Positions 5,264 to 62,888 of a stretch of 64,000 nt of DNA are shown in pieces. Location of the stretch: assembly GCF_002831565.1 (NCBI RefSeq), contig NZ_CP025096.1, positions 2,891,027 to 2,955,026 of the forward strand. The letters are read 5' to 3'. Under the pieces are notes generated by a model. That model worked only from the letters and a program-made list of their open reading frames with translations. It was not told the DNA's origin and searched no databases. Both the position numbers and the translations under genes were made by a program. Numbering within the stretch: position 1 is the first letter of the stretch; each line of letters opens with the position of its first letter. The DNA comes from Spirosoma pollinicola (GTDB lineage: Bacteria > Bacteroidota > Bacteroidia > Cytophagales > Spirosomataceae).

Positions 5264-5345
5264 TAAACACAGAGTGAACAGAGGATTCACGGAGAGCACG
5301 GAGCAACTTGGTGCCCTCCGTTTTTTCTCCGTTACCTCCGTGTTT
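5264..5345. repeat. Imperfect inverted repeat of CACAGAG/ACGGAG words
   Basis: The left arm begins TAAACACAGAGTGAACAGAG and the right arm ends CTCCGTTACCTCCGTGTTTA. The arms match imperfectly and are built from short ACAGAG/ACGGAG words. It fills the space between two co-directional minus-strand genes, directly upstream of the 1494-5261 start. Confidence 0.6.
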
Positions 5346-5350
5346 ACTAG

Positions 5351-6466
5351 TTAGACATTTTTAAAATCTGGCAATTGAATCAACTTCCCACCCTGTAAAG
5401 CCGATTCGTGCGCCAGAATACCCACACTCGTCCAGTTGGCCGATTGTGCTGCATTGGGGAACGGATCACGGTCTTCAACGATGGCCGACACAAATTCATG
5501 TACCATGTGTGGGTGCGACCCACCATGACCTCCCCCCTGCGTAAACGATAGGTGTTGCTGCTCATCGGCATCATACACCCCTTTGGTCGTGAATCCGGCT
5601 ATTTCGGCGGGTAGTAAGCGCCCATAATCGGGTACAGTTACCTTTTCGGGAATCTCCGGCTCCGGCTTTTTGGCCGTATGAATAACCGGCTGCTCATCTT
5701 CAATCAGTTGCCATTCGAACGATTTTTTATCGCCGTATACTTCAAAACTTTCCCGGTATTGGCGGGCCACATCGAACAGCGACCGGTAAACATAGGCCGA
5801 CAAATCACTGTCTTTGAACTTGATATGCGCCGACTCCACCGCAAATGGCGAGTTATGAATCTTGGCTAACTCCTCCCGAATCGTACCCGAACCAAAGCAG
5901 GATACATAGTCGGCTTCGAGTTTGAGCAAGCCCGCAACGGGGCCAACACAGTGCGTTGCATAATGCATTGGTGGTAAACCCGGCCAGTAATCAGGCCACC
6001 CGTCCATGTCCTGCTGGTGACTTGCTTTCAGAAACTGAACTTTACCCAGTTCGCCCGTTTCATATAACTCCTTCACAAACAGAAACTCGCGGCTGTAAAC
6101 CACCGTTTCCATCATCATGTACTTTTTGCCTGATTCCTTACAGGCTTTCACGATTTCCAGACAATCGGCCACACTTGTCGCCATTGGTACCGTACAAGCT
6201 ACGTGTTTTCCAGCCCGCAGGGCCTTCAGACTTTGCTCGGCATGGTTTGGAATGGGCGAGTTGATATGCACCGCGTCGATGGCCGGGTCGGCCAGCAGTT
6301 CGTCGTAGTTGCTATAGCGTTTTTCAATGCCATACGCATCACCTATTTCATTTAACTTCTCAACGTTGCGCTGGCAAATCGCATACATGTTTGCGTTGGG
6401 GTGCCGCTGATAAATTGGAATAAATTCGGCCCCAAATCCGAGGCCAACGATTGCGATGTTAATCAT
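5351..6466 (-). CDS. Gfo/Idh/MocA family oxidoreductase
   Basis: 371-residue cytoplasmic NAD(P)-dependent dehydrogenase. It begins with a Rossmann fold (IVGLGFGAEF, about residues 5-14) and continues into the alpha/beta substrate domain typical of this family. The usual CEKP motif, whose Lys takes part in catalysis, reads CTVP here (residues 91-94), so the chemistry may differ or another residue substitutes. It has no signal peptide, unlike the Gfo/Idh protein at 26690. It lies between the epimerase (upstream) and the ThuA/dehydrogenase fusion (downstream) on the same strand, which suggests one sugar pathway. The substrate is not predictable from sequence. Confidence 0.88.
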   Translation of the reverse strand: MINIAIVGLGFGAEFIPIYQRHPNANMYAICQRNVEKLNEIGDAYGIEKRYSNYDELLADPAIDAVHINSPIPNHAEQSLKALRAGKHVACTVPMATSVADCLEIVKACKESGKKYMMMETVVYSREFLFVKELYETGELGKVQFLKASHQQDMDGWPDYWPGLPPMHYATHCVGPVAGLLKLEADYVSCFGSGTIREELAKIHNSPFAVESAHIKFKDSDLSAYVYRSLFDVARQYRESFEVYGDKKSFEWQLIEDEQPVIHTAKKPEPEIPEKVTVPDYGRLLPAEIAGFTTKGVYDADEQQHLSFTQGGGHGGSHPHMVHEFVSAIVEDRDPFPNAAQSANWTSVGILAHESALQGGKLIQLPDFKNV

Positions 6467-6477
6467 TTTTAAAGTAC

Positions 6478-6570
6478 GAAAGAGTGAATGAGCGAAAGAG
6501 TAAAAGAGAGAAAGAGTGAAATAATCATTTCATAATATAGCTCTTTGACTCTTTCGCTCTTTCACTCTTT
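6478..6570. repeat. Inverted repeat of GAAAGAG words
   Basis: Arms 6478-6508 and 6541-6570, with few mismatches and a loop of about 32 bp. Both arms are built of GAAAGAG(T/C) octamers. The right arm encodes the last residues before the stop of the upstream epimerase, so the palindrome overlaps coding sequence. Confidence 0.8.
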
Positions 6571-7403
6571 ATAAAGTCTAGTCCATCGACGGCCAGCTGC
6601 TCGGGCGAATCGAACATAGGCCGGAAAATATGTGTGGCTGCTGCCAGTTCGGGCGGGTTCGGGCCAAAGGCTTCAATGGCAATGGGCCCTGCATAATCGA
6701 CCTCCTCCAGGACAGCAAATACCTCTTCGAAATTTATATGCCCCTTGCCGGGAGTGGACCGGTCATTCTCCGAAATCTGCACATGAATCAAATAAGGCGC
6801 GCACATTCGTAAGGCATCACCAATACTTTTCTCCTCCATATTGGCATGAAAGGTGTCGAAAGCAACCCGGCAGTTCGGGTGGTTGACCGCTTCTACATAC
6901 CGCACTACATCATCGGCGCAGGTGAGCAGATAAATTTCAAATCGATTGAGGTACTCGATTGCCAGCGTTACGCCCTGTGTCTGCGCGTATTCGGCTACCT
7001 CACGCATACCATTTACCGACCAGTTCCACTCTTCGGCCGTTGCCGGTTTGCCCGTAAATGTCTTGAATCCTGCATACATAGGCCCCATTACAATCGCAGA
7101 CCCAACAGCCCGCGAGCAATCGACCACTTGTTTGAGATAATTGACGCTGGCTGTACGTACAGACTCATCAGAACTAATCAGGCTGTGCTCAGGACCGCAG
7201 ATCGTACAGGTCTGTACACCCAGCCCCAACTCACTGATTTGCTTCCCAATACGGTGCCATTTGTCTAGGCCAGCAGGCCCCGGCTCACTAATGGGTACTT
7301 CAACAAAGTCGAAGCCACTCGTTTTCAAAAACCTGAATGTATCGGTCAAATCTTCGTCCATCGACATTGTCCAGACGAACATATTCATTCCTATCTTATT
7401 CAT
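6525..7403 (-). CDS. Sugar phosphate isomerase/epimerase (TIM barrel, DTE-like)
   Basis: 292-residue xylose-isomerase-like TIM barrel resembling D-tagatose/D-psicose 3-epimerases. The expected metal and catalytic residues are seen in order: Glu in LAIEYLNRFE, Asp and His in VAFDTFHANM, His in HVQISENDRS with a following Arg-type site, and Glu in AIEAFGP. It is the first gene of the leftward cluster and is divergent from an AraC regulator 135 bp away. The Lys/Ser/Glu-rich C-terminal tail (KSERAKESKS) is encoded by one arm of the GAAAGAG palindrome, so the native C-terminus has probably been altered. Epimerase versus 3-keto-sugar hydrolase or isomerase activity is open. Confidence 0.88.
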   Translation of the reverse strand: MNKIGMNMFVWTMSMDEDLTDTFRFLKTSGFDFVEVPISEPGPAGLDKWHRIGKQISELGLGVQTCTICGPEHSLISSDESVRTASVNYLKQVVDCSRAVGSAIVMGPMYAGFKTFTGKPATAEEWNWSVNGMREVAEYAQTQGVTLAIEYLNRFEIYLLTCADDVVRYVEAVNHPNCRVAFDTFHANMEEKSIGDALRMCAPYLIHVQISENDRSTPGKGHINFEEVFAVLEEVDYAGPIAIEAFGPNPPELAAATHIFRPMFDSPEQLAVDGLDFIKSERAKESKSYIMK

Positions 7404-7538
7404 ATTCTTTCCGTAAAAAGTTAAACAAATATAAATAGGGCTTAAATTTGTATTCTGGCTTTTATTATCGAATACCGACTTTATTTTTACACATATTATA
7501 GAAATTAATCGATATTTGCGTTAAAAATCAGCAACTGA
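7404..7538. promoter_or_regulatory. Divergent promoter region, epimerase cluster / AraC regulator
   Basis: AT-rich 135-bp space between two divergent starts (7403 on -, 7539 on +). It is the natural place for both promoters and for AraC-family binding. No clear operator half-sites could be fixed by eye. Confidence 0.4.
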
Positions 7539-8495: not shown

Positions 8496-8529
8496 GAATT
8501 AAGCAATCGAACAGAATTAAAATATATAT

Positions 8530-8650
8530 TTAACCACAGAGACGGTCCGCCGTTGCGGCACAGAGCGTACAGAGGTGCAATATTCTGATAACAAGCCGAT
8601 TGAAGCTCTGTGCTCTCTGTGCCGCAACGGCGGACCGTCTCTGTGGTTAA
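8530..8650. repeat. Long inverted repeat, CACAGAG family
   Basis: Perfect 36-bp arms at 8530-8565 and 8615-8650, each beginning TTAACCACAGAGAC on its own outer strand. The loop still carries CAGAG words. It lies between convergent genes (8411 and 8682). The outer words are shared with the inverted repeat at 39156-39246. Confidence 0.9.
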
Positions 8651-8681
8651 AAAATTTGCGTAAGTACTTAAAAAGGCTTTT

Positions 8682-9903: not shown

Positions 9904-9912
9904 TTTTGCCAG

Positions 9913-14673: not shown

Positions 14674-14748
14674 TACACACAAATACACAGAGCACACGAC
14701 ATGTGTACTCTGTGCAAATCTCTGTGTATTTTGTCTTTGTGTGTGATA
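14674..14748. repeat. Imperfect inverted repeat, CACAGAG family
   Basis: The left arm contains ACACACAAATACACAGAG. The right arm contains CTCTGTGTATTTTGTCTTTG and ends in GTGTGT. It includes a second CTCTGTGCA word in the loop. It lies in the 98-bp space between two co-directional minus-strand genes. Confidence 0.65.
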
Positions 14749-17597: not shown

Positions 17598-17772
17598 GGA
17601 CCGGGATTATAGCTAGATCTTAAAGATTGCCCAAGATTACGCGCTTACTGTAATCTCGGGCATATAATAACGTAATCCAGACTGGGATTTTAGTGAGATT
17701 TAAACGATTGATCAGGATTATGCACTTGCTGCAATCTTGGTTAATCGCTAAAATCTCGCTAAAATCCCGGTC
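17598..17772. repeat. Nested inverted repeat of GGGATTTTAG words
   Basis: The outer arms begin GACCGGGATTATAGC and end GCTAAAATCCCGGTC. Two inner hairpins lie inside: one around CCCAAGATTACGC / GTAATCTCGGG and one around CTGGGATTTTAGTGAG / CTCGCTAAAATCCC. The structure fills the space between convergent stops at 17594 and 17779. Confidence 0.8.
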
Positions 17773-23623: not shown

Positions 23624-23678
23624 GTAGCAAAGAAACAGGTGCAGCCAACTTAGTTGACTGCACCTGTTTTTTTGCTAC
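23624..23678. terminator. Long hairpin terminator after glgB
   Basis: Stem GTAGCAAAGAAACAGGTGCAG / CTGCACCTG-TTTTTTTGCTAC with small internal mismatches, plus a T run. It begins 15 bp after the glgB stop. Confidence 0.8.
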
Positions 23679-23753: not shown

Positions 23754-24527
23754 ATGAAGCAATTATTTGGTGCGTTACTAATTTTATCTCCACTATTCAC
23801 CTATGCGCAATCGCCAGTATCAGCCCGCCTTAGTAGTGGTTATGATTTAGGTATGGCCTACTCGGAAAGCCACTACAATCCGTCTCTCACCTATTACCAG
23901 TTGATAAATATTGGCGAGCATAAAACGTTTTCGCTGGGCTGGACGGGGCGTCTGGCCGCTTTTTACGGCGACAACCTCAACTACTACACAGCTCCCGCTC
24001 GCCTTACACGCGGGAAAAGCGGATTCGGGGCCCTGAGTGGGCCGCTACTTGTCGATAACATCGATACGGTTCGCTACGACTACGTGTCGATGACCTCGTT
24101 TAATTTAGGGATTCGGGCGCAGGTAAATTTGGGGCTGTTGGAATTGGGTGCAAGTGCTGACCTGTTGGGGTTAAGTTTCGGCAAGTCACGAACAGGACGT
24201 TATCAGTCGTCAACGGGTCAGTTCAACATTCAATCCAGCACAGGAACCGATTCGACGACGGCTTTTTACCAGGGTTCGAATACCTTTCAGAAATCGCATC
24301 CAAGTCTGATGAATCTACGCTTACTCAGCGATAATGACAGAGGTACGCTCGCTACCGAAGTATATGCCAGACTTAAAATCGGCCAGCGAATTGGCGTTAA
24401 AGTGAGCTATCAATGGCTCACGACCGAGACAACCGTTTCTAAGCGCGATGTAATTTCCGACAATAATCGCTTTCGAAACCGGGCAAACATGGCGTATATA
24501 GCCCTAACGATTCCGGTGTTTTATTAA
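23754..24527 (+). CDS. Probable outer-membrane beta-barrel protein
   Basis: 257 residues. ATG 23754 opens a signal peptide (MKQLFGALLILSPLFTYAQ); a longer in-frame extension lacks it. The mature part alternates polar and hydrophobic residues in many short strands (SLGWTGRLAAFYG, NLGIRAQVNLGLLELGASAD, RIGVKVSYQWLTTE) and ends with a C-terminal aromatic (PVFY), as outer-membrane barrels often do. I do not recognise the family. Its stop codon lies inside a perfect 37-bp palindrome shared with the convergent neighbour. Confidence 0.75.
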   Translation: MKQLFGALLILSPLFTYAQSPVSARLSSGYDLGMAYSESHYNPSLTYYQLINIGEHKTFSLGWTGRLAAFYGDNLNYYTAPARLTRGKSGFGALSGPLLVDNIDTVRYDYVSMTSFNLGIRAQVNLGLLELGASADLLGLSFGKSRTGRYQSSTGQFNIQSSTGTDSTTAFYQGSNTFQKSHPSLMNLRLLSDNDRGTLATEVYARLKIGQRIGVKVSYQWLTTETTVSKRDVISDNNRFRNRANMAYIALTIPVFY

Positions 24528-24622
24528 TGTTGAATGAGCGAATGAAGGAATGAGAGAATGGATTTTGGGAAGTACTTACTCATTGCATTCTCTCATTCCT
24601 TCATTCGCTCATTCAACATTAA
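24524..24622. repeat. Perfect 37-bp inverted repeat spanning two convergent stop codons
   Basis: Arms 24524-24560 and 24586-24622 are exact reverse complements (37 of 37), with a 25-bp loop. They are made of GAATGAG/GAATGAAG words. The left arm contains the TAA of the barrel-protein gene; the right arm contains the stop of the alpha-E gene (24619-24621). Confidence 0.93.
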
Positions 24623-26633: not shown

Positions 26634-26689
26634 CTCAGGCAAACAACCTTATTTATCAATCGGTTTCATAACGTAAAATAAACAACGTT

Positions 26690-28084
26690 ATGAAACCGAT
26701 TGATCGTTTAGTGAACAGCTTACTTGGCAATCCGGCGATGTCAACATTATCTCGTCAGGATTTTCTTCAACTCACGGGCCAGGGTCTGGCTGTTGGCGCA
26801 TTGGGCAGCACCCTTACTTCCTGCGAGAAAAAACCGGAAGCAAATACCGCAGCCGTTGAAACAGCCAGCACGCCTGGCGGGCCCGTTCCAAAACTCCCCG
26901 CTACTTCGCCCCCGGCCCAAGTCCCTGCCGACTCTACCAAACCTATTGAGCTGGAGCAGATAAAAGCTAAAACAGAGCAACAGGAAGGGCCCACCCCTAC
27001 ACCAATGGCCGCAGATCAGCGCGTTGGCTATGCGCTCGTTGGCCTTGGGCACCTGACACTCAATCAGATTTTGCCCGCTTTCGGTGCTTGTACAAAATCG
27101 AAAGTGGTGGCTTTGGTGAGTGGTAGCCCCGAAAAAATGCAGAAGGTGGCCGCGCAATATGGCATTAAAGAATCGAGCTGTTACAGCTACGCCGACTACG
27201 ACAAACTCAAGGACAATAAGGAAGTACAGGCTATTTACATTGTGCTGCCCAACGGTATGCACGCCGAATACACCATTCGGGGGGCGCAGGCCGGAAAGCA
27301 TATTCTCTGCGAAAAACCGATGGCCAACTCCGTGCAGGAATGCCAGGCGATGATCGACGCCTGCAAAAAAGCGGACCGCAAGCTCATGATTGCCTACCGA
27401 ATTCAGTATGAGCCGCATAATAAGATGGTGCGCGAGATGGTACAGACAGAGAAATTCGGGAAGGTAAAAAGCATTATTGCCAACAACGGCCAAAACTCCG
27501 ATAATCCTAAACACTGGCGGTTTAACAAGGCATTGGCTGGTGGAGGGTCTTTACCCGATGTGGGGCTGTATTGCCTGAACACGATTCGATTTGTACTCGC
27601 CGAAGAACCTACGGAGGTAATGGGCTACGTTCACAGCACGCCCAACGACCCACGATTTAAGGAAGTTGAAGAGCAGGTAAACTGGTTAATGAAGTTTCCA
27701 AGTGGTGTGCAGGCCAGTTGCGGAACCAGTTACGGCCATCATGACGATAAGAGCTATCGCGTTTTGGCCGACACCGGCTGGATTAAAATGGACCCGGCTT
27801 TTCCTTACACAGGTCTAAAGCTGGAAACGAGCCAGGCGCAGGGTCAGGAAAATCAAATTATCCAGCATAACATTCCCGATAAAGACCATTTCTCCACCGA
27901 GATGGACCACTTTTCGGAATGTATTCTGGACAACAAAGTGCCATTTACACCCGGCGAAGAAGGACTTCAGGACCAGAAAATCATGGAAGCTATTTACCAG
28001 TCGGCGCGGGAAGGGAAACCGGTTAAGTTGCCTGCCGTGAGCAAGAAAGATGCGTTTAGAGGGCCTGAACCTAAAACTGCCTGA
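26690..28084 (+). CDS. Exported Gfo/Idh/MocA oxidoreductase
   Basis: 464 residues resembling periplasmic glucose-fructose-oxidoreductase-type enzymes. The N-terminus has SRQDFLQLTGQGLAVGA, similar to a Tat signal but with RQ rather than RR, and a Cys at TLTSC that could be lipidated. A Pro/Thr/Lys-rich linker (about 45-105) leads to a Rossmann fold (ALVGLGHLTLN, about 114-124) and the catalytic CEKP motif in HILCEKPMANS, followed by the substrate domain. Cofactor would have to be bound before export, as in the Zymomonas enzyme. It is probably in one operon with the NIPSNAP protein. Substrate unknown. Confidence 0.88.
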   Translation: MKPIDRLVNSLLGNPAMSTLSRQDFLQLTGQGLAVGALGSTLTSCEKKPEANTAAVETASTPGGPVPKLPATSPPAQVPADSTKPIELEQIKAKTEQQEGPTPTPMAADQRVGYALVGLGHLTLNQILPAFGACTKSKVVALVSGSPEKMQKVAAQYGIKESSCYSYADYDKLKDNKEVQAIYIVLPNGMHAEYTIRGAQAGKHILCEKPMANSVQECQAMIDACKKADRKLMIAYRIQYEPHNKMVREMVQTEKFGKVKSIIANNGQNSDNPKHWRFNKALAGGGSLPDVGLYCLNTIRFVLAEEPTEVMGYVHSTPNDPRFKEVEEQVNWLMKFPSGVQASCGTSYGHHDDKSYRVLADTGWIKMDPAFPYTGLKLETSQAQGQENQIIQHNIPDKDHFSTEMDHFSECILDNKVPFTPGEEGLQDQKIMEAIYQSAREGKPVKLPAVSKKDAFRGPEPKTA

Positions 28085-28146
28085 CAGCGCAAGCCATCTC
28101 GATAAGGTTTGTTGGCTACTTTCAGTTGCGCAGTTTGATCGAGCGT

Positions 28147-28194
28147 TTTATTTATCTGCCGAAATTGAGCGATCAGTTTCGGCAGATAAATAAA
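28147..28194. terminator. Bidirectional hairpin
   Basis: Perfect 18-bp stem TTTATTTATCTGCCGAAA / TTTCGGCAGATAAATAAA with a 12-bp loop and A/T runs, between convergent stops at 28084 and 28220. Confidence 0.8.
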
Positions 28195-28219
28195 AAATAA
28201 TCTGCTTGTTTTTTAAACA

Positions 28220-30514: not shown

Positions 30515-30635
30515 ATGGCGCGAGGCTCTGGCCTCGTGTCTACTATTACCCGGCCTCTGGCCGAAATATAAAGAATGTGAACAGTCCGGCCAGAGGCCGG
30601 GTAATAGTAGACACGAGGCTAGAGCCTCGCGCCAT
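30515..30635. repeat. REP inverted pair, copy 1 (GGCGCGAGGCT family)
   Basis: 121 bp. The outer arms start ATGGCGCGAGGCTCTGGCCT and end with the complement ...GCCTCGCGCCAT. Each arm contains two small hairpins (GAGGC-tct-GCCTC type and CCGGCC-tct-GGCCGG type). It directly follows the transposase stop side. Confidence 0.88.
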
Positions 30636-30641: not shown

Positions 30642-31172
30642 TCAATACGGACTTAAATGTAAAGCCGTGTCTGGATTGGCGCTACTGTAAATATAATTCT
30701 GTGGCTCGTTAACCAGACCTGCCTTAACTGGATTCTGATGAATATACTCAATCTTCTCGTCGATCCAGCGATTCGATTCCAGACTAATGGGGTGATTTCC
30801 ATGTACCCATACTTGGTATTCAGAATTATTGATCTTCTGTTTAGCAAAGTACCGAAATAAATATAACAGCCAATCTCGCCTGCTTTCTTCACTATGATCC
30901 TGAATCAGTTGCAAGAGTTGCTTTGCGGTAAAACTCTTGAAGTCGCGCATAACTGGACCAACTTCACCCGACTTAACATCGCAAACCATATGAATGTGGC
31001 TCGGCATTATACAGAATGCATATACGCGCAGCCCCTTCCTGGCAATACAGACGTTCAGGTTACGGATAATCTCGTCGCAATATTCCTTTCGGGTAAATAA
31101 ATCAATCCAACCAACAATTGTAAACGTTACAAAAAACAAACCGTCTTTGTAAAATCGGTACTTCTCCGACAT
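30642..31172 (-). CDS. REP-associated tyrosine transposase (RAYT, Y1 HUH family)
   Basis: 176 residues. The start is MSEKYRFYKDGLFFVTFTIV at 31172; the longer upstream frame reads through the flanking REP. The HUH metal-binding motif is His59/His61 in PSHIHMV, and the catalytic Tyr is probably Tyr143 in IEYIHQNPVKAGLV, the RAYT/IS200-like C-terminal block. RAYTs are single-copy, vertically kept relatives of IS200/IS605 transposases that nick and move REP palindromes. Identical palindrome types lie on both sides and a third lies at 34641. Both ends of the protein and all key residues appear intact, so the enzyme may be active. Confidence 0.92.
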   Translation of the reverse strand: MSEKYRFYKDGLFFVTFTIVGWIDLFTRKEYCDEIIRNLNVCIARKGLRVYAFCIMPSHIHMVCDVKSGEVGPVMRDFKSFTAKQLLQLIQDHSEESRRDWLLYLFRYFAKQKINNSEYQVWVHGNHPISLESNRWIDEKIEYIHQNPVKAGLVNEPQNYIYSSANPDTALHLSPY

Positions 31173-31195
31173 AGAAATGGTGTGAACAGTGTGTA

Positions 31196-31323
31196 GGATG
31201 GCGCGAGGCTCCAGCCTCGTGTCTGGTATTCTCCGGCCTCTGGCCGGGTTAAATAAAAAGCAATACAATAACCCGGCCAGAGGCCGGAGAATACCAGACA
31301 CGAGGCAGAGCCTCGCGCCATCC
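31196..31323. repeat. REP inverted pair, copy 2 (GGCGCGAGGCT family)
   Basis: 128 bp. Outer GGATGGCGCGAGGCTCCAGC pairs with the complementary end ...CTCGCGCCATCC, with minor differences at the inner hairpin tips. The loop is an AT-rich stretch around 31250-31270. It ends 2 bp from the stop of the ABC transporter gene. Confidence 0.9.
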
Positions 31324-33175: not shown

Positions 33176-33315
33176 ATACAAAAAAGACAAGGCCAGCGGG
33201 GGAATAGTTCATCGCAGGTAAGCCAGCGTTCGCGACAACACAGTTGGCTATGAACAACGCGAGGGAGGGCCGCACACTAGTATTAGCTTTACAAATTTTT
33301 GTTGTTACTTCCCGA

Positions 33316-34638: not shown

Positions 34639-34640
34639 TG

Positions 34641-34783
34641 TCTGAGTGATGATGGCGCGAGGCTCTGCCTCGTGTCTAGTATTCTCCGGCCTCTGGCCGG
34701 GTTAAGTTATATAGTTTAGCAAACCGGCCAGAGGCCGGAGAATACTAGACACGAGGCAGAGCCTCGCGCCATCATCACTCAGA
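34641..34783. repeat. REP inverted pair, copy 3, perfect 60-bp arms
   Basis: The arms (34641-34700 and 34724-34783) are perfect reverse complements over 60 bp, beginning TCTGAGTGATGATGGCGCGA. Both inner hairpins of the family are present. It starts 2 bp after the thioredoxin gene stop. A partial extra end (GCCTCGCGCCATCATC, about 34789-34804) follows as a direct repeat. Confidence 0.93.
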
Positions 34784-34862
34784 TATTAGCCTCGCGCCAT
34801 CATCCTCATCAATTTTAATGCCTACATACGTTTTTACAGCACGCAAAACCCATTTTTAAAGG

Positions 34863-37132: not shown

Positions 37133-39160
37133 ATGAATCAGCCTTTTGCCGCTCAATCAACTTCTCTTCTACCAGACGAAGAAGCTTTGCTTCGACGTTC
37201 TTATGATCAATTGCAAACAGCCCTTAGTATTGGGTTGATTGCTACCTGGTTTTGGGACATCCAAACCGATAAAGTTTACGGCGACTTGAATCTTTTCCGG
37301 CTGTTCGGCATCCCAGAACATTCCCTAACAGTTGGACTTCCACTACACACATTTACAGATCAAATACATCCTGACGACCAGTCGCGGGTTACTCATCTCA
37401 TCAATGAGGCCATTCAGTCAGGTACGATGTATGAAGCAGAATTCCGCACCATGCCTGATGGCCCCATGAAGTGGGTCCTTGCCCGGGGAAAGGCAACGTA
37501 TGATAAAGATGGGCAACCCCTTACCCTGTCGGGAGCACTGGTCGATGTCACAGAACGCAAGCAGGTTGAACTGCGCTCACAAATAGCCGAAACCAGTCTT
37601 CGGCTTTCCGTTGAAGCGGCACGAATGGGCACCTGGGACTATCAGCCCCTTTCAGGTGAGTTAACGTGGTCTGATCGTACAAAAGAACTCTTTGGTCTCC
37701 CTTTAACAGCAGCTATAGACTACAACGTCTTTTTGCAGTGTGTTCATCCCGACGACCGAGAAGCAACTGACCGGGCTGTGCAGGCCATTTTACAGCCAGA
37801 CAGCAACGGGCGATTTGCCTGTGAATACCGAATTGTGGACACTAAAGGCGGGCTCATACGTTGGATCCGATCAAACGGACAGGCTTTTTTTAACGAGCAG
37901 GGAGCTGTTTACCAATTCATTGGTACCGTCATCGACATTACTTCTGACAAAGAAAATGAGTCGCTCTTACAACGACGTGTTGAGGAGCAAACGTACATTC
38001 TGGAACAACAGGCACATCAATTGCGGACAACGCTGGATGCTTCCATCAATAGCATTATTGCCATGACCGCTCTACGAGACGACACTAATACGATTGTCGA
38101 CTTCATGATGGATACGGCTAATGAAGCGGTCATAAAAAGTAATTTCATGACACCCGAGCAGATAATTGGCCGAACATTATTAACGGTTTTTCCGGGCAAT
38201 AAAGAGAACGGCTTTTTTGATCTCTATGTACGGGTTGTTGAAACGGGCAAGGCGGAACAAAGCAGTCAATATTACCGGGATGAATTTGGTCTTGAAGGCT
38301 GGTTTGAAGTATCGGCGGTTAAGCAGGGTAATGATGGCGTGGTGGTTACTTATAATAACATCACCGAACGAAAACGGGCCGAATTGGCTGCTTTGCAACA
38401 AGAGAAAGAGCTCAAAGAAGCCAATGCTGAACTCCGCCGTTCCAATGAAAACCTTCAGCAATTTGCCCACATTGCCTCGCATGATTTGCAGGAACCACTC
38501 CGGCGCATCCAGGCGTTTAGTGACATCCTGCAAAACCAGTTTGTCGACAGTCTTTCCGACGGTGAGCGGGATATGGTTCGTCGTGTTCAGAAGTCAGCTC
38601 AACGAATGCAGTTGCTTATCAAAGACCTACTACTTTACTCGCAACTCAGTACCCAGCGCGACTCGTTCACAACGGTATCCCTTACGAACGTGCTTTCAGA
38701 TGTCGTATCGGATTTAGAGATGACTATATCCGAGAAGAATGCAACTATTGATGTAGCCCCCTTGCCACAGGTTTATGGAAGCGCCCCGCGACTTCGGCAA
38801 CTTTTTCAGAATCTGATCACCAACGCGCTCAAGTTTTCATCACCCGGCGTCTTACCGCTTATTCAAATTCGTTTCCGGGCGGCTCAACCTAACGAACTCC
38901 CCGCCGACCTGCACGATCAGGCAAGCCAGCCTTTTTGGTTGATTTCTGTGGCCGATAATGGCATTGGGTTCGATGAACGTTACAAAGACCGAATTTTTAC
39001 ACCCTTCCAGCGCTTACATAATCCAGCCACGTATAGTGGAACAGGCATCGGTCTGGCTATTTGCCAGCGCGTTACCGAGAGTCATGGCGGGAGCATCGAT
39101 GTGAGCAGCGAAGAGAACAAAGGCTCAACCTTTAAAGTGTTTTTGCCTGCGCTTGTTTAA
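37133..39160 (+). CDS. Multi-PAS sensor histidine kinase
   Basis: 675-residue cytoplasmic kinase with no membrane segments. At least three PAS domains are visible (about 25-150, 155-285 and 300-420), the first two of the PAS_3/PAC type ending in DVTERK-like blocks. A coiled-coil helix (about 420-440) joins them to the HisKA domain with His450 in HIASHDLQEPLRRI. HATPase_c shows FQNLITNALKFS, DNGIGFDE and GTGIGLAICQRV. This layout is typical of light, redox or cyclic-signal kinases related to phytochrome partners. It is convergent with the phytochrome operon, so a shared signal is possible but unproven. Its stop lies in an inverted repeat arm. Confidence 0.92.
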   Translation: MNQPFAAQSTSLLPDEEALLRRSYDQLQTALSIGLIATWFWDIQTDKVYGDLNLFRLFGIPEHSLTVGLPLHTFTDQIHPDDQSRVTHLINEAIQSGTMYEAEFRTMPDGPMKWVLARGKATYDKDGQPLTLSGALVDVTERKQVELRSQIAETSLRLSVEAARMGTWDYQPLSGELTWSDRTKELFGLPLTAAIDYNVFLQCVHPDDREATDRAVQAILQPDSNGRFACEYRIVDTKGGLIRWIRSNGQAFFNEQGAVYQFIGTVIDITSDKENESLLQRRVEEQTYILEQQAHQLRTTLDASINSIIAMTALRDDTNTIVDFMMDTANEAVIKSNFMTPEQIIGRTLLTVFPGNKENGFFDLYVRVVETGKAEQSSQYYRDEFGLEGWFEVSAVKQGNDGVVVTYNNITERKRAELAALQQEKELKEANAELRRSNENLQQFAHIASHDLQEPLRRIQAFSDILQNQFVDSLSDGERDMVRRVQKSAQRMQLLIKDLLLYSQLSTQRDSFTTVSLTNVLSDVVSDLEMTISEKNATIDVAPLPQVYGSAPRLRQLFQNLITNALKFSSPGVLPLIQIRFRAAQPNELPADLHDQASQPFWLISVADNGIGFDERYKDRIFTPFQRLHNPATYSGTGIGLAICQRVTESHGGSIDVSSEENKGSTFKVFLPALV

Positions 39161-39246
39161 CCACAGAGACACAAAGTGCATAGAGGTCAATTGGGGAATT
39201 AAGTTCCCTCTTCAACCTCTGTGCACTTTGTGCCTCTGTGGTTAAA
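39156..39246. repeat. Inverted repeat, CACAGAG family
   Basis: 32-bp arms with two mismatches, opening TTTAACCACAGAGACACAAA. The left arm contains the stop of the PAS kinase (39158-39160). It shares the outer TTAACCACAGAGAC word with the repeat at 8530-8650. Confidence 0.85.
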
Positions 39247-45337: not shown

Positions 45338-45426
45338 TTTTGTCATCCCGACGGAAGGAGGGATCTTCGGTAAACCGGGAAATTTCATTTCTACCGAAGA
45401 TCCCTCCTTCCGTCGGGATGACAAAA
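45338..45426. repeat. Perfect 35-bp inverted repeat (GATCTTCGG family)
   Basis: The arms start TTTTGTCATCCCGACGGAAG and are exact reverse complements over 35 bp, with a 19-bp loop. The inner GGGATCTTCGGTA core is shared with the repeat at 58561-58683. It lies between co-directional genes. Confidence 0.9.
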
Positions 45427-46719: not shown

Positions 46720-46790
46720 GAGGATTCTAATTGACGTTATATAGGCCATAACGTCAAGATATGGCCTATATAACGTCAATTAGAATCCTC
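46720..46790. repeat. Perfect 30-bp inverted repeat
   Basis: Arms 46720-46749 and 46761-46790 are exact reverse complements with an 11-bp loop, beginning GAGGATTCTAATTGACGTTA. It is located between convergent stops at 46697 and 46796. Confidence 0.92.
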
Positions 46791-49285: not shown

Positions 49286-49297
49286 GTGTATGGTTTT

Positions 49298-49350
49298 CGG
49301 TTTACAGTTTTCGGACTGTCGGCCAACCGTAACCCGAAAACTGTAAACCG
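49298..49350. repeat. 17-bp inverted repeat touching a start codon
   Basis: Perfect arms CGGTTTACAGTTTTCGG (49298-49314) and the complement at 49334-49350. The right arm ends exactly before ATG 49351. Confidence 0.82.
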
Positions 49351-49974
49351 ATGATCAATTACCGCTTCTACCCTTCGCTCCTCAACGTGTTTGCGCGCTA
49401 CCTGCGTGGCGGAAACCTCTCGGCACAGGAACTGATTGACTCCATCAACCGCGTACCAACACCCGGCACAGCCGCCCAGGAGCGTGGCGTTTCGTTTGAA
49501 GAGGCTGTTGTGAAAGGCACCAATGAGGAACGCTTCGACCCGGAGCTTATTAAAAAAGTTCGGAAGCTCCTCCCCCGGCCCATTGTCGATACGCAGGTCT
49601 ATTGCCAATGGGAAATTGACGATGTGCTGTTTTACGGTTATGTCGATCTGATTGGTAAATTCAAAGCTGTCGATTTAAAGACGACGGCTTCCTACCAGCC
49701 AAACCGCTTTCTGCACAACCACCAGAATTTATACCTGCATGCCCTCAAGCGTAAAGGCATCAAACTCATGGAATACGTCATTGCCGAATTTCAGCCGGGT
49801 GGGCAAGCCGAAGTACATGTGGAAAGTTACTCCCTCACACACCCCATTGACAAACAGCTGGAAGAAATTCGCCTGCTCAAAGCATTTCTGGAAGAACACC
49901 GGCCACTAATTACCGACCCCAAAATATTTGTGACACCCGGCGAAGATGCCGACGCAAGACGAAAGTCAAGGTAA
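49351..49974 (+). CDS. PD-(D/E)XK nuclease-like protein
   Basis: 207 residues of the RecB/Cas4-like PD-(D/E)XK type. The catalytic pattern is visible: Glu50/51, Asp99 in FYGYVDLIG, Asp108 and Lys110 in KAVDLKTTASY, and Gln125 with Tyr128 in NHQNLYLHAL. No iron-sulfur Cys cluster, helicase or Cas gene is nearby, so it is a free-standing domain. Role unknown; it may serve DNA repair or defence. Its ATG directly follows the inverted repeat at 49298-49350, which could hinder ribosome access. Confidence 0.85.
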   Translation: MINYRFYPSLLNVFARYLRGGNLSAQELIDSINRVPTPGTAAQERGVSFEEAVVKGTNEERFDPELIKKVRKLLPRPIVDTQVYCQWEIDDVLFYGYVDLIGKFKAVDLKTTASYQPNRFLHNHQNLYLHALKRKGIKLMEYVIAEFQPGGQAEVHVESYSLTHPIDKQLEEIRLLKAFLEEHRPLITDPKIFVTPGEDADARRKSR

Positions 49975-50034
49975 ACCTATACAGTTTCTAAAGGGCTTCC
50001 TTACAAAAACTGGACTCCCCAATTGATGACTAAA

Positions 50035-50140
50035 ATTGGAACACAGATAATACAGATTGAACGGATTTTCACTGCATCAACGGTCAGTCATGAGTTTTAT
50101 CCGTAAAAATCCGTTCAATCTGTATTATCTGTGTTCCAAT
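50035..50140. repeat. Perfect 35-bp inverted repeat
   Basis: Arms 50035-50069 and 50106-50140 are exact, beginning ATTGGAACACAGATAATACA, with a 36-bp loop. They are built of CAGAT-like words. It lies between co-directional + strand genes. Confidence 0.9.
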
Positions 50141-50211
50141 TGCTTTGCAAGAATGCCGTATACGGTTTCTAAAAGCCGCCACAGCGTCCCGGCTTGTAGT
50201 TCGTTTCGCCG

Positions 50212-51489: not shown

Positions 51490-51530
51490 GAAATTGTCTC
51501 CCCAACTTTCTTTACGACCTTTGCAAAAAA

Positions 51531-51660
51531 CGAAAGAGTGAAAGAGCGAAAGAGTGAAAGAGCGGAAGAGTGAGAAAGCGAAGGAGTGATCAAGCCAGTC
51601 CACTCTTTCGTCCTTTCGCTCTTTCGCTCTTTCACTCTTTCACTCTTTCGCTCTTTCACT
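51531..51660. repeat. Octamer-rich inverted repeat upstream of argH
   Basis: About 60-bp imperfect arms, each a tandem run of the octamers GAAAGAGT and GAAAGAGC (complement on the right side), with a loop around 51590-51600. It spans from 41 bp after the MFS stop to 13 bp before the argH TTG start. Confidence 0.88.
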
Positions 51661-51673: not shown

Positions 51674-53020
51674 TTGAAACTCTGGCAGAAAGAAGGCGTC
51701 AGCACCGCCGAACAAATTGAACGTTTCACCGTAGGCCGCGACCGTGAAATGGACCTGTACCTCGCTCCTTTCGATGTACTGGGGAACCTTGCCCACGCTC
51801 AAATGCTTGAAACCATTGGCCTGTTGAGCAGTGATGAATTAGGCATGATGACTGATGAATTGAACGTTATTTTTCAGAAAATTCAGGCAGGCGAGTTCAA
51901 AATTGAAGACGGTGTCGAAGATGTTCACTCGCAGGTAGAGCTAATGCTAACACGGGTATTGGGCGATGTGGGCAAGAAAATTCACTCAGGCCGGTCGCGC
52001 AACGATCAGGTGCTGGTCGATTTAAAACTCTTCACCCGTGATCGACTCTGGCGCGTGGCCGAAGCCGTTCGAACGGTGTTCGATAGGCTGGTGAGCCGCT
52101 CGGAGCAACATAAAAATGACCTCCTGCCGGGTTATACCCATCTGCAAATCGCCATGCCATCGTCGTTCGGGCTTTGGTTTGGTGCCTATGCCGAGGCTCT
52201 CGCCGACGATATGCTGACGCTGCAAACGGCTTACCGACTGGCTAACCGGAATCCGCTTGGGTCAGGGGCGGGCTATGGCTCGTCGTTTCCGCTCAACCGC
52301 ACGCTTACCACCGAGTTATTGGGTTTTGAAGGTATGCACGTCAATGTGGTATATGCACAGATGAGCCGGGGGAAAACGGAACAAACGGCACTGACGGCAC
52401 TGGCTGCCGTAGCCACAACGATCTCGCGCATGGCGATGGATATTTGCCTGTATAACAGCCAGAACTTCGGTTTTCTGGTCCTCCCAGACGCGCTCACAAC
52501 GGGCAGCAGCATCATGCCGCACAAGAAAAACCCGGATGTAGCGGAATTGCTGCGGGCCAAGACCAACAAAATGAAAGCGTTACCTATGGAAGTAACGCTT
52601 GTCATGAGCAACCTGCCCTCCGGCTATCACCGCGATATGCAGTTGCTGAAAGAAATCCTGATGCCCGCCTTCGACGAAATTCTGGATTGCCTGGAAATCG
52701 CCGATTTCATGCTGGAACACCTTCAGGTAAAGCCCAATTTGCTGGACGACCCCAAATATGATTTACTCTTCAGCGTCGAACGCGTGAATGAGCTAGTGTT
52801 ACAGGGCGTTCCCTTCCGCGAAGCCTACCGAACCGTTGGTAAAGAGATTGCCGAACATACCTATAACCCACCCCGCGAACTGCATCATACACACGAAGGC
52901 AGCATTGGCAATTTGGGAAATGATTTAATCGAAAACGCCATGAACAAGGCCATGACGGGCTTTGGCGCTGAAAAAGCCCAAACAGCCATTCGGCAGTTGT
53001 TAAAGGAGCGTATTGACTGA
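51674..53020 (+). CDS. argH: Argininosuccinate lyase (TTG start)
   Basis: 448-residue enzyme cleaving argininosuccinate into arginine and fumarate. The start is TTG at 51674, because the encoded KLWQKEGVS is the expected N-terminus and no ATG is available in frame. Family motifs are HSGRSRNDQVLVDLK, GYTHLQIAMP and the catalytic-Ser loop GSSIMPHKKNPDVAEL. Other arginine genes are not in the window. Unusually, a GAAAGAG palindrome ends 13 bp upstream, and the last codons and stop sit inside a second perfect palindrome (53005-53095). Confidence 0.95.
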   Translation: MKLWQKEGVSTAEQIERFTVGRDREMDLYLAPFDVLGNLAHAQMLETIGLLSSDELGMMTDELNVIFQKIQAGEFKIEDGVEDVHSQVELMLTRVLGDVGKKIHSGRSRNDQVLVDLKLFTRDRLWRVAEAVRTVFDRLVSRSEQHKNDLLPGYTHLQIAMPSSFGLWFGAYAEALADDMLTLQTAYRLANRNPLGSGAGYGSSFPLNRTLTTELLGFEGMHVNVVYAQMSRGKTEQTALTALAAVATTISRMAMDICLYNSQNFGFLVLPDALTTGSSIMPHKKNPDVAELLRAKTNKMKALPMEVTLVMSNLPSGYHRDMQLLKEILMPAFDEILDCLEIADFMLEHLQVKPNLLDDPKYDLLFSVERVNELVLQGVPFREAYRTVGKEIAEHTYNPPRELHHTHEGSIGNLGNDLIENAMNKAMTGFGAEKAQTAIRQLLKERID

Positions 53021-53095
53021 ACTGAACTGAACTTTAAACGCCATATCTTGAAGATATGGCGTTTAAAGTTCAGTTCAGTTCAGTCAATACGCTCC
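53005..53095. repeat. Perfect 45-bp palindrome with one-base loop over the argH stop
   Basis: Arms 53005-53049 and 53051-53095 are exact reverse complements around a single G at 53050. The left arm includes argH codons and its TGA; the right arm is an inverted copy of them. The arms begin GGAGCGTATTGACTGAACTG. Confidence 0.95.
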
Positions 53096-53127
53096 TGCCA
53101 AACCAATGGACGCTCAACTCTCACTCT

Positions 53128-53346
53128 ATGAATACGTTACCAGAAGAAACCAGAAATGATTTACGGCGAATTGGCGGAGAATTATCCCGCTTATCATTCG
53201 ATGTTTTAACCGTTGTTGGCATTGGTGATCAGGACGACCTGAACCACAAGCGATTAACTGAAGTCATGGATCACATAGATCAGGCCCTATCCGGTCTGGC
53301 AGAAATTATCACCGGGGGTGAGGACGATGATGAAGAACTAGAGTAG
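53128..53346 (+). CDS. Small acidic protein, unknown
   Basis: 72 residues starting at ATG 53128 (MNTLPEETRNDLRRIGGELS). An in-frame upstream ATG lies inside the palindrome and was not used. It is helical and acidic, ending GGEDDDEELE. No family recognised. It follows argH on the same strand and could be co-transcribed with it if the palindrome does not terminate. Confidence 0.6.
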   Translation: MNTLPEETRNDLRRIGGELSRLSFDVLTVVGIGDQDDLNHKRLTEVMDHIDQALSGLAEIITGGEDDDEELE

Positions 53347-53349
53347 GTT

Positions 53350-53409
53350 ATTGGTGGAGTAAGTGAAGTAGCCAATTGACTATTTAACTACTTCACTTAC
53401 TCCACCAAT
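53350..53409. repeat. Perfect 22-bp inverted repeat
   Basis: Arms 53350-53371 and 53388-53409 begin ATTGGTGGAGTAAGTGAAGT. An extra tandem of ACTTCAC/CCTCACC words follows the right arm. Located between convergent stops at 53346 and 53435. Confidence 0.85.
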
Positions 53410-53434
53410 CACTTACTTCACCTACCTCACCATT

Positions 53435-54706: not shown

Positions 54707-54720
54707 TTGCTCATTCAGGG

Positions 54721-54805
54721 AATGAAGAGTGTAGAGTGAACAATGAAGAATAAAAGACTGATTGCCTGTATTTTATTCTTCATTATTCACTCTACACTCT
54801 TCATT
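54721..54805. repeat. 35-bp inverted repeat of GAAGAGTG words
   Basis: Arms 54721-54755 and 54771-54805 differ at one base, beginning AATGAAGAGTGTAGAGTGAA. The words recall the GAAAGAG/GAATGAAG group. Convergent space between 54706 and 54815. Confidence 0.87.
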
Positions 54806-54814
54806 ATCTAAAGT

Positions 54815-57665: not shown

Positions 57666-57780
57666 GTTTGTAGAAAAAATTCCAGTTGAGTTAACTAGCG
57701 TGCCGTAGGTACGCCACCTTTGGCCATTGTTGCGTACCTACGGCACGCTAGTTAACTCAACTGGAATTTTTTCTACAAAC
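57666..57780. repeat. Perfect 49-bp inverted repeat (TGCCGTAGGTACG family)
   Basis: Arms 57666-57714 and 57732-57780 are exact, starting GTTTGTAGAAAAAATTCCAG, with a 17-bp loop. A further CGTACCTACGGCAC copy of the inner word sits at 57785-57798. Convergent space between 57627 and 57928. Confidence 0.92.
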
Positions 57781-58560: not shown

Positions 58561-58683
58561 GTTTTTGTCATGGCTCCGGCCACCCGGACCGACGAAGAAG
58601 GGATCTTCGGATGAGACGAAGTGCTCCAATTTACCGAAGATCCCTCCTTCGTCGGTCCGGGTGGCCGGAGCCGTGACAAAAAC
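58561..58683. repeat. 50-bp inverted repeat (GATCTTCGG family)
   Basis: The arms begin GTTTTTGTCATGGCTCCGGC and pair over about 50 bp with two mismatches. The inner core GGGATCTTCGG / CCGAAGATCCC is shared with the repeat at 45338. Between co-directional minus genes. Confidence 0.88.
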
Positions 58684-59914: not shown

Positions 59915-59938
59915 CGGGATTGATAGTTAATTCGGGCC

Positions 59939-61429: not shown

Positions 61430-61479
61430 CAGTATTTAATTAACGTACTTGCATTCATAAAATGAACATCGGCTCCTAT

Positions 61480-62250: not shown

Positions 62251-62254
62251 TTTT

Positions 62255-62322
62255 AAAGAGTGAATGAGTGAAAGAGCGAATGGAAGATTAAAAAGATTCG
62301 CTCTTTCACTCATTCGCTCTTT
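62255..62322. repeat. GAAAGAG-family inverted repeat in a divergent promoter space
   Basis: The arms match over about 27 bp (left 62255-62281, right 62296-62322), made of GAAAGAG/GAATGAG words. It occupies most of the 92 bp between the starts of two divergent genes. Confidence 0.8.
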
Positions 62323-62330
62323 CGCTCTTT

Positions 62331-62338
62331 TATCTTTG
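62331..62338 (+). promoter_or_regulatory. -7 box (TATCTTTG)
   Basis: TAnnTTTG match 4 bp before ATG 62343, right after the palindrome. Confidence 0.45.
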
Positions 62339-62342
62339 AGGT

Positions 62343-62786
62343 ATGGTTGCGCTGAACCTCCCGACTTTTGACTGTAAAATTAAACAAGTCGAAGGGAAAC
62401 CCTACATTTTCGATTCATTACGCCGGAAGTACGTCCGGCTCTCGCCCGAAGAGTGGGTTCGGCAGCATATTGTCAATCTGCTGCTGACTCATTATGCCTA
62501 TCCCAAATCTCTTATTCGCACCGAAGGAGGACTAATCCTGAACCAGACCCAAAAAAGGACAGATGTGGTGGTCTTCGACCGGCAGGGGCAGCCTTTTCTG
62601 GTGGTTGAATGCAAGGCTCCCCATATTCCATTGACCCAGTCGGTATTCGATCAGATTGCCCGCTACAACCACGTACACAAGGCTCCCTACCTAGTCATTT
62701 CCAACGGCCTGACACACTACTGCTGCGGCATTGATCACAACACGGCCGATGTGCAATTTCTGGACGATTTCCCGGCATTTATGTAG
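62343..62786 (+). CDS. HsdR N-terminal-domain-like nuclease protein
   Basis: 147 residues, corresponding to the N-terminal PD-(D/E)XK domain of type I restriction HsdR subunits and found as a free-standing protein throughout Bacteroidota. The catalytic pattern is Asp74 in KRTDVVVFD and Glu89-Cys90-Lys91 in VVECKAPHI. A helix follows with QIARYNHVHKAPYLVISNG. There is no helicase, methylase or specificity subunit nearby, so a complete restriction system is not present. Role unknown. Confidence 0.85.
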   Translation: MVALNLPTFDCKIKQVEGKPYIFDSLRRKYVRLSPEEWVRQHIVNLLLTHYAYPKSLIRTEGGLILNQTQKRTDVVVFDRQGQPFLVVECKAPHIPLTQSVFDQIARYNHVHKAPYLVISNGLTHYCCGIDHNTADVQFLDDFPAFM

Positions 62787-62795
62787 CGTGGTTTT

Positions 62796-62888
62796 ATGTA
62801 ACGTGGCAGGAATGCCGCGTAGCTGTAGGCTAACAAGTATAAGTACTATTTCAGCCTACAGCTACGCGGCATTCCTGCCACGCTACAT
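62796..62888. repeat. 36-bp inverted repeat
   Basis: Arms 62796-62831 and 62853-62888 with one mismatch, beginning ATGTAACGTGGCAGGAATGC. The outer word GTAGCGTGG also occurs once more at 62783. Convergent space between 62786 and 62945. Confidence 0.88.

Follow-up and report, generated by a model that had tools for sequence, protein, structure and literature searches.

Inverted repeats in the window

The window analyzed here, a stretch of 64,000 nucleotides of Spirosoma pollinicola, contains 23 inverted repeats (IRs) of score at least 16, with arms of 18 to 68 bp, several of them perfect. In 20 dinucleotide shuffles of the window (in 1-kb blocks), no IR of that score occurs, and none even at score 13. 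The preliminary description had listed long IRs at 22 intergenic positions and had proposed the comparison with shuffled controls. An IR of score at least 16 is present at 19 of these positions, and the remaining ones (5264, 14674, and 17598) read by eye as real palindromes, but imperfect or gapped; next to 17598, a strong IR occupies 17680–17772. Four IRs of score at least 16 were absent from that list (17680, 23624, 26655, and 28146). The observation of long intergenic IRs is confirmed. Over the window, Rfam gives no match at the gathering score. At score at least 20, the window is IR-rich, with 34 per 100 kb, whereas other parts of the same genome (400 kb sampled) have 10 per 100 kb.

On the minus strand, at 30642–31301, lies a gene for a REP-associated tyrosine transposase (RAYT), located by a PF01797 search of the genome (26.4 bits, cut-off 23). 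It also matches NF047646 (95.1 bits, cut-off 80) and carries the SHIH and YIHQNP motifs; our own gene caller places its start at 31172. This gene sits between two copies of its own REP doublet family, one at 30515–30635 (GGCGCGAGGC/CCGGCCTCTGGCCGG family, with an arm of 49 bp) and one on the opposite side of the gene at 31198–31322 (with a 38-bp perfect part at 31214–31306). A third REP doublet, with arms of 65–68 bp, occupies 34636–34788, starting with the stop codon of gene 33244–34638.

The palindrome at 53004–53096, with a AACGCCATATCTT core, has 46-bp perfect arms made of the tip core and a 33-bp outer stem, and it supplies the last codons and the stop of gene 51674–53020. CACAGAG words occur at 8529–8651 (convergent space, with a GGTCCGCCGTTGCGG block in both arms) and at 39156–39246 (convergent, at the stop of gene 37133–39160). 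A degenerate and gapped CACAGAG palindrome is found at 5264–5351 and an imperfect CACAGAG-like one at 14674–14748 (both by eye); a CACAGAT-word palindrome is at 50034–50141. CGTC-like palindromes are present at 45338–45426 (GTCATCCCGACG..GGGATCTTCGG, 35-bp perfect arms) and 58561–58683 (with a GGCTCCGGCCACCCGGAC block in both arms). AAAGAGYG words are seen at 6479–6570, 51525–51660 (tandem space), and 62255–62322 (divergent space, with words common to several Spirosoma). The 8-mer-word palindrome at 24524–24622, with 37-bp perfect arms, occupies its convergent space from stop to stop. Others are built on AATGAAGAGTG words (54714–54812), on GTGGAGTAAGTG words (53342–53417, convergent), or on GGGATTTTAGTGAGATTT (17680–17772, preceded by a second, imperfect palindrome at about 17598–17675). 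The palindrome at 57666–57780 (49 bp) is near-unique, with two partial relatives in the genome. Convergent spaces also contain 46720–46790 (31-bp perfect arms), 62792–62892 (40 bp, after gene 62343–62786), and 28146–28195 (23 bp), and tandem spaces 49297–49351 (18-bp perfect arms) and 23624–23678 (27 bp). The 20-bp perfect palindrome at 26655–26704 overlaps the start of gene 26690–28084.

The IRs of the window are, thus, a mixture of REP doublets, of dispersed CGTC-like, CACAGAG, and AACGCCATATCTT-core families, of 8-mer words, and of near-unique palindromes. The earlier statement that they are different at each locus is only partly right, several loci being members of dispersed families; the RAYT gene and the dispersed nature of those families had been overlooked.

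Placement at gene ends

In 464 kb of this genome, with IRs near stretch ends excluded and with a home-made gene caller that missed genes (coverage 0.47–0.92 by stretch), IRs are present in 25 of 64 convergent, 39 of 222 tandem, and 4 of 60 divergent spaces (p = 1.4e-5). This comparison had been suggested beforehand. In the window, the ORF sets give 11 convergent pairs, 9 of them with an IR of score at least 16, where the preliminary description had 9 of 12. None of 75 IRs lies inside a called gene. In 84 tandem cases, the median distance of the IR is 17 nt from the stop codon upstream and 50 nt from the start codon that follows. Wherever related species are compared, their rows are not independent. 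This location just after stop codons is that of terminators. A symmetric bidirectional terminator centered between the convergent genes was considered and is not supported: where there is slack, the IRs are nearer to one stop than by random placement (55 spaces). Both edges of the IR are within 15 nt of the stops in 42 of 119 spaces, with about 36 (95% range 32–41) by random placement.

The hairpins recur at orthologous gene ends. At the Alpha-E gene end, an IR of score at least 10 is present at 24 of 30 Spirosoma loci (our own included) and of score at least 16 at 14, mostly with a different sequence. With both genes of the Alpha-E space placed, 12 of 13 spaces reach score 12 and 7 reach 16. 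At score 12, the three divergent control spaces contain no IR (0/18, 0/10, and 0/20).

Evolution of the arms

The AACGCCATATCTT core carried by 53004 is present 19 times and is repeated in five genomes, with 74 copies. In the 37 copies read (mainly best matches for three of the five genomes), the outer stems have 0 mismatches in 900 pairs, and thus no G·U pair either, while the core has 12 in 481. These perfect stems are specific to the locus. An outer 10-mer is common to only 3 of 666 pairs of copies, one of which is an orthologous pair, and the repetition of 53004 in the genome is limited to the core region, bar one partial relative (query 13–81) and one slightly longer match (28–66). Between the members of four orthologous pairs, the outer stems differ by 18 substitutions (9 transversions, by our own count) and by indels, all mirrored; the AACGCCATATCTT.AAGATATGGCGTT core is less variable than its stems. 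The local flanks were rejected as the origin of the outer stems, since no stem 12-mer recurs in the same fetched locus (0/37 copies). Among 58 IRs of this genome, a shared tip and a shared base are equally frequent (19 vs. 18, with 6 in the middle); a constant tip with a variable stem is, therefore, a feature of the AACGCCATATCTT family and does not emerge as a general trait of the IRs.

Two close species pairs were compared, G005 with G004 and G010 with G027. Of the 21 IRs of G005, 19 were placed; one of these was excluded because of a long insertion, and G004 has an IR at 17 of the others and none at 1. Of the 36 IRs of G010, 30 were placed, and G027 has an IR at 23 of them and none at 7. 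The totals leave out the reverse directions, which were also run. There are 43 mirrored pair changes (23 transitions and 20 transversions) versus about 6 expected from the divergence of the flanks (our own estimate), in a count restricted to cases where both species have an IR, which favors paired cells. The share of transversions resembles that of the flanks. At G010_73216, a multi-base block change is mirrored. One-sided differences are more numerous (126, with 43 G·T, 37 A·C, and 46 other), in 21 cells the two sides both changed but do not pair, and gaps are more often one-sided than mirrored (78 vs. 26). Most IRs are, therefore, homogenized less strictly than the core family.

The loop is clearly inverted between close species in 3 of 31 loops versus 0 of 530 control segments (p = 1.5e-4), where the script flagged 6 of 31, the three clear cases were picked on reading, and a stricter placement rule applied to the controls than to the loops. 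Two of them have an inverted identity of 0.94–0.95; in G005_114001, by eye, 24 of 26 positions agree in the inverted and 14 of 26 in the forward direction.

The suggestion that the stems are kept perfect by copying between arms is well supported by these mirrored substitutions (including transversions), mirrored indels, and loop inversions, and by the absence of mismatches in stems that differ between loci. Mirrored multi-base changes and transversions, together with loop inversion between relatives, are marks of template switching, and the sequence comparisons point to replication template switching; the copying would be of that type and not another arm-to-arm exchange. According to the theory of intrastrand switching (PMC8794818), the 5′ arm should have G > C and T > A. 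We observe G > C (65 vs. 15 and 52 vs. 26), but not T > A. At G010_96894, neither arm resembles the IR-less site of two relatives, so that this locus does not reveal how the stem arose. Loss of SbcCD was rejected as the reason for the survival of the palindromes: SbcD scores above the cut-off in this genome and in 11 of 19 searched. In G004, G001, G023, and G035, all 99%–100% complete, it does not reach the cut-off.

Related behavior is described in the literature. The RNA hairpins maintained by template switches (Monttinen and Loytynoja 2022, PMC8794818) share the perfect stems, the multi-base compensatory changes, the loop inversions, and the preference for G–C over C–G in the 5′ arm. Those hairpins are rRNA and microRNA stems, whereas here they are bacterial gene-end palindromes with arms of up to 68 bp, with locus-specific stems on a shared core and without T > A. 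The coding palindromes of nematomorph mitochondria (PMC6649704) are also long perfect IRs with concerted evolution of the arms and gain or loss between species, but they are inside mitochondrial genes, whereas those of Spirosoma are between genes and include dispersed families. Quasipalindrome correction in E. coli involves the same proposed mutational step; it is known from mutational hotspots, while here the step is deduced from species comparison.

Possible role at 3′ ends

The hairpins may act as transcription 3′ ends or as protectors of RNA ends, which fits their position and recurrence. The initial proposal of bidirectional terminators or mRNA-end stabilizers agrees with only some of the observations. 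The convergent bias and the placement near stops favor it, as does the 54714 site, where the long palindrome of the window corresponds to an ordinary T-tract terminator in two relatives (L061 and L063). On the other hand, there is no U-tract after the 3′ arm, with a T fraction of 0.23–0.44 at each of 12 positions (a class average; single cases may have one). Further, T-tract hairpins are not depleted next to long IRs, and the polarity of the arms is opposite, with a G-rich 5′ arm in the long IRs and a C-rich one in ordinary T-tract terminators. Intrinsic and bidirectional terminators also have a hairpin just after the stop, common to convergent genes, but the arms are several times longer here. 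Replacement of ordinary terminators by long IRs is not supported, T-tract hairpins being slightly enriched near long IRs (27% vs. 20% in convergent and 16% vs. 8% in tandem spaces).

The same observations on position, convergent bias, and the 54714 site, as well as the compensatory changes in pairs, would follow from RNA selection alone, with long (bidirectional) intrinsic terminators, ordinary compensatory mutation, and a need for perfect pairing in convergent pairs, where both strands are transcribed. We hold this to be improbable, given the lack of any mismatch in the outer stems of the core family, the transversions that make up about half of the mirrored changes, the mirrored indels and inverted loops, and the absence of a U-tract as a class. 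Moreover, mismatches in tandem IRs have no significant excess of G·T over A·C (56 vs. 44, p = 0.27), unlike those in T-tract terminators (105 vs. 54, p = 6e-5), although the two ratios themselves do not differ significantly (p = 0.12). RNA-level wobble, considered as the cause of the perfection, gave no significant signal.

Dispersed families

The 30515/31198/34636 family occurs at 22 places in the genome (22 loci were read, of which L160 returned the neighboring CACAGAG palindrome instead). It is a RAYT-associated REP doublet (REPIN/BIME), with a cognate tyrosine transposase flanked by the repeat and dispersed copies in which two inverted units form a hairpin. As in the REP/BIME/REPIN systems (PMC3733652, PMC6006769), the RAYT is flanked by inverted REP pairs, and the copies are scattered between genes, mostly downstream of them. 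The likeness covers one family of the window and a few others in the genome, and the GTAG tag expected at the foot of the hairpin varies among the copies: the letters GTAG are near the hairpin in some copies (in 30515, the complement CTAC) and CTAG, CTGG, or CTGT in others (by eye). At four RAYT loci, the letters after the hairpin are GTGT. PMC6006769 mentions atypical secondary structures for the Bacteroidetes subclass 2.6. Of 12 other loci where the same two genes are paired, 11 lack the RAYT.

The 45338 family, with words common to 58561, is found at 40 places among 40 scored of 69 candidates, and the 39156 family, with words common to 8529, at about 30 places among 40 scored of 59 candidates. 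The 45338 family may belong to the CGTC REPs (Di Nocera families), which have a CGTC tag beside the palindrome: its reverse complement reads CGTCGGGATGAC, and CGTC repeats are stated to occur in Bacteroidetes (PMC3733652). Among the other families of the window that were examined, none showed a RAYT link, and the AACGCCATATCTT core is absent from the IRs listed within 1.5 kb on either side at the 7 Y1_Tnp loci, so that no RAYT is seen flanked by it.

The view that all IRs are mobile REP/REPIN or MITE insertions, with a symmetry inherited from a symmetrical element, agrees with the RAYT and REP doublets of the window, with the same-word IRs on both sides at 4 of the 7 Y1_Tnp loci of the genome, and with the dispersed families. 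It is, nevertheless, still less likely than RNA selection alone. Outside the shared core, the stems are perfect although nearly every locus has its own, and 53004 is repeated essentially at its core only. Target-site duplications as in MITEs are not above the shuffled level in the 37 AACGCCATATCTT-core copies (33 without a direct repeat and one with 8 nt). Finally, arms match better within a copy than between copies in the REP family (identity 0.955 vs. 0.83, median 0.86) and in the CACAGAG copies (0.959 vs. 0.896), with little gap in the CGTC-like copies (0.969 vs. 0.939). Double-stranded protein-binding or cruciform sites (nucleoid or supercoiling elements) requiring a palindrome are very improbable. 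The AACGCCATATCTT.AAGATATGGCGTT core does vary less than its stems and recurs in five genomes, but no sequence is common to the other families, the stems vary freely, and the rarity in divergent spaces points to gene ends.

Proposed explanation

We consider it probable that these gene-end hairpins differ in origin but evolve in one common way, in which the arms are rewritten by replication template switching. Some would start as dispersed hairpin repeats (the RAYT-linked REP doublet, CGTC-like, CACAGAG, and AACGCCATATCTT-core families), a route of arrival that we infer, and would settle just after stop codons because insertions do least harm there. Other palindromes may have come from ordinary terminators or from simple words. 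In an existing IR, template switching would repeatedly rewrite one arm from the other, so that a mutation, an indel, or a small insertion is either mirrored or lost, and would sometimes flip the loop. Through such rewriting, the shape and position of the hairpin would persist while the sequence drifts. More tentatively, a dispersed core such as AACGCCATATCTT.AAGATATGGCGTT could be a palindrome seed, from which, wherever it lands, fold-back copying would build and keep a perfect stem, mostly of 8–40 bp, out of locus-specific DNA; the outcome would be dozens of hairpins with a constant tip and a unique stem that proofread themselves at gene ends and double as bidirectional 3′ ends.

The perfect pairing of long stems over time is a standing puzzle in the evolution of RNA and DNA. 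Spirosoma alone provides many natural test cases, with pairing kept while the sequence is replaced, with known gene ends, and with a rate that can be bounded. Compensatory changes by themselves are no proof of selection at the RNA level. Should the hairpins define 3′ ends as well, a regulatory shape would be maintained by a mutational process without sequence conservation, and methods based on sequence conservation would overlook such shapes.

Density and placement of the palindromes

A hairpin finder that allows no gaps (+1 per match, −2 per mismatch) detects 23 inverted repeats (IRs) of score 16 or more across the 64-kb window, and none in 20 block-wise dinucleotide shuffles of it, even down to score 13; the excess over shuffled sequence expected in the preliminary description is confirmed. 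The chromosome containing the window has 8.79 Mb, and 20 spaced 20-kb stretches of the same genome gave 52 further IRs. At score 20, the window holds 34 IRs per 100 kb against 10 in the 400 kb sampled elsewhere and is, therefore, richer (about 3.4 times) than the rest of the genome. Four relatives have 4.5 to 11.5 IRs per 100 kb (200 kb each), and ten other stretches of Spirosomataceae (~21 kb each, family membership judged from titles and similarity) have 0 to 29. Outside that family, seven of eight stretches have no IR and the remaining one has a single IR; the 50 kb of E. coli scanned contain none. SbcD falls below cut-off in the near-complete Spirosoma genomes G004, G001, G023, and G035, yet palindromes are common in the genus.

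IRs are held by 25/64 convergent, 39/222 tandem, and 4/60 divergent spaces (chi-square p = 1.4e-5), and 0/75 lie inside called genes, with genes called by a home-made codon-model caller that must have missed some, since its coverage is 0.47–0.92 depending on the stretch. In tandem spaces (own genome and relatives), the IR begins a median of 17 nt past the upstream stop and is closer to that stop than to the next start in 58/84 cases. Some IRs fill, or almost fill, the convergent gap (e.g., 24524–24622), as at six loci of the core family (palindromes sharing the tip core of the IR at 53004), where 76–93 nt separate the convergent stops. Both IR edges lie within 15 nt of a stop in 42 of the 119 convergent spaces with one IR (~36 under random placement). 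At 53004–53020, the palindrome encodes the final codons and the stop of gene 51674–53020 (C-terminus LLKERID); several relatives end in LLSK, LLG, or LLS.

Palindrome families and the RAYT

The core AACGCCATATCTT.AAGATATGGCGTT of the IR at 53004 has 19 copies in the own genome and 31, 14, 9, and 1 in four relatives; it is absent, with up to two mismatches, from the other 31 of the 36 genomes searched. A partial relative at G000:C1:3605419-3605487 shares part of the outer stem of 53004 (84%) and is the sole match of that extent found. The CGTC-like family of 45338, with words in common with 58561, occurs at 40 places (40 of its 69 candidates were scored), and the CACAGAG family of 39156, with words in common with 8529, at ~30 (40 of 59 candidates scored). 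Apart from the REP doublets described below, the remaining window IRs are palindromes built on 8-mer words (AAAGAGYG, GTGGAGTAAGTG) or near-unique ones, such as 57666. An AAAGAGYG palindrome (62255–62322), recurring in several Spirosoma, fills the space that separates a PNP_UDP_1 gene from a divergently oriented HSDR_N_2 gene; the adjoining TATCTTTG box resembles the Bacteroidetes −7 motif.

The REP-associated tyrosine transposase (RAYT) gene at 30642–31301 (NF047646, 95.1 bits, cut-off 80) has a copy of its own REP doublet on either side (30515–30635 and 31198–31322), with a third at 34636–34788 and 22 places genome-wide. Among 12 other loci with the same neighboring genes, a RAYT is present in L104 only. 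At four of the own genome's seven Y1_Tnp loci, both sides carry IRs built on the same word, a different one at each locus; two others have a one-sided IR and one has none. By eye, the letters GTGT directly follow the hairpin in RAYT-flanking REPs of four families of the own genome (L025, L026, L027, and L028).

Shape kept and sequence replaced

Within ~100 nt of the Alpha-E gene end, 24/30 Spirosoma loci (own included) have an IR scoring at least 10 and 14/30 one scoring at least 16, with arms that differ among loci save in a few related species with common arms. Score 12 is reached in 12, and score 16 in 7, of the 13 loci with both genes placed. In these gene-space comparisons, the loci come partly from related genera. 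Convergent occupancy at score 16 is uneven (g45/g46 3/18, g51/g52 2/9), and the divergent control spaces have no IR of score 12 or more (g19/g20 0/18, g37/g38 0/10, g44/g45 0/20). Divergent sites are rare, yet they do occur, since g50/g51 is occupied at score 12 or more in 10/16 loci. The g43/g44 gene end holds a plain T-tract terminator in L061 and L063 and a long word palindrome in the window. By these comparisons, the palindrome shape outlives its sequence.

Concerted changes of the arms

Two species pairs of ~90%–92% identity were compared over ~220 kb each (G005 to G004 and G010 to G027); the counts are limited to sites where both species have an IR, which favors paired cells. Next to 774 unchanged base pairs, there are 43 two-sided changes that still pair (23 transitions, 20 transversions), 21 two-sided changes without pairing, and 126 one-sided changes (43 G.T, 37 A.C, 46 other); gap cells are one-sided in 78 cases and mirrored in 26. 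About six matched double changes would be expected by chance, as estimated from flank divergence. A mirrored multi-base block change occurs in G010_73216, words are replaced in both arms of G010_109417 and G010_208586, and seven G010 IRs have no counterpart IR in G027.

The AACGCCATATCTT family is the strictest case of arms changing together. In the 37 of 74 copies read (own 19/19; relatives 9/31, 4/14, 4/9, and 1/1), the outer stem extends 8–40 bp past the core (3 bp in L219), with mismatches in 0/900 outer-stem pairs and 12/481 core pairs. An outer-stem 10-mer is common to only 3/666 copy pairs, one of them orthologous. Four orthologous copy pairs differ in their outer stems by several indels and 18 aligned substitutions (nine transversions by reading, with one pair aligning poorly); as no outer stem has a mismatch, each of these differences is mirrored in the opposite arm. 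In L229 and L221, the core itself carries one-sided changes.

Among the 31 orthologous loops, orientation is forward in 24 and ambiguous in one; six are flagged as inverted, three of these being plain inversions (92%–95% identity, one scored by eye). Among 530 non-IR control segments, placed under a stricter rule than the loops, 528 are forward, two ambiguous, and none inverted (3/31 vs. 0/530, p = 1.5e-4). Since RNA pairing alone would not flip loops, the flips suggest DNA copying or exchange between arms. Extra blocks in both arms of window 8529 and L017:16169 (CACAGAG words), and of window 58561 and L132 (CGTC-like words), are as expected for an insertion copied from arm to arm.

The IR at 26655 is likely a polarized case: where L101–L106 read C-TGACGT, CCTGACGT, or CACGACGT, the own genome and L100 have CATAACGT, which exactly complements the arm bearing the next gene's start. 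That 3′ arm of 26655–26704 contains the start codon region of gene 26690–28084; the other arm is largely kept in eight aligned loci and is a perfect complement in the own genome and L100 only. A translation-blocking hairpin is possible there.

Function and origin

The preliminary description saw in these IRs bidirectional terminators or mRNA-end stabilizers. Their position and recurrence are compatible with a 3′-end role; on the other side, a U-tract was not found as a class feature, the IRs are not centered between convergent genes, and T-tract hairpins are not depleted beside them (convergent 65/244 vs. 73/372, tandem 22/135 vs. 55/714 gene ends). The chances of a real 3′-end function are about evenly balanced, and we rate arm copying, by which one arm is rewritten from the other, as the more probable of the two. 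The copying also proposed in the preliminary description is supported by the 43 mirrored pair changes, the 0/900 outer-stem mismatches, and the three clear loop inversions. The 5′ arm of long IRs is G-rich (convergent 65 vs. 15, tandem 52 vs. 26); that of T-tract terminators is C-rich (63 vs. 113). Intrastrand template switching is said, in an excerpt of PMC8794818, to yield G over C plus T over A in the 5′ arm; the G-richness is alike, but T over A is absent here.

The mutational step behind arm copying is already known, and passages of PMC6649704 describe long perfect IRs with concerted arms in nematomorph mitochondria. The main texts of the IR surveys PMC10434271, PMC4060949, and PMC13155455 do not mention Spirosoma, and among the open-licence papers listed for Spirosoma and palindromes, no title concerns such palindromes. 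With the step and the nematomorph IRs known and the Spirosoma case not found in that literature, what we count as new is a bacterial population of palindromes at gene ends, family-seeded and self-copied.
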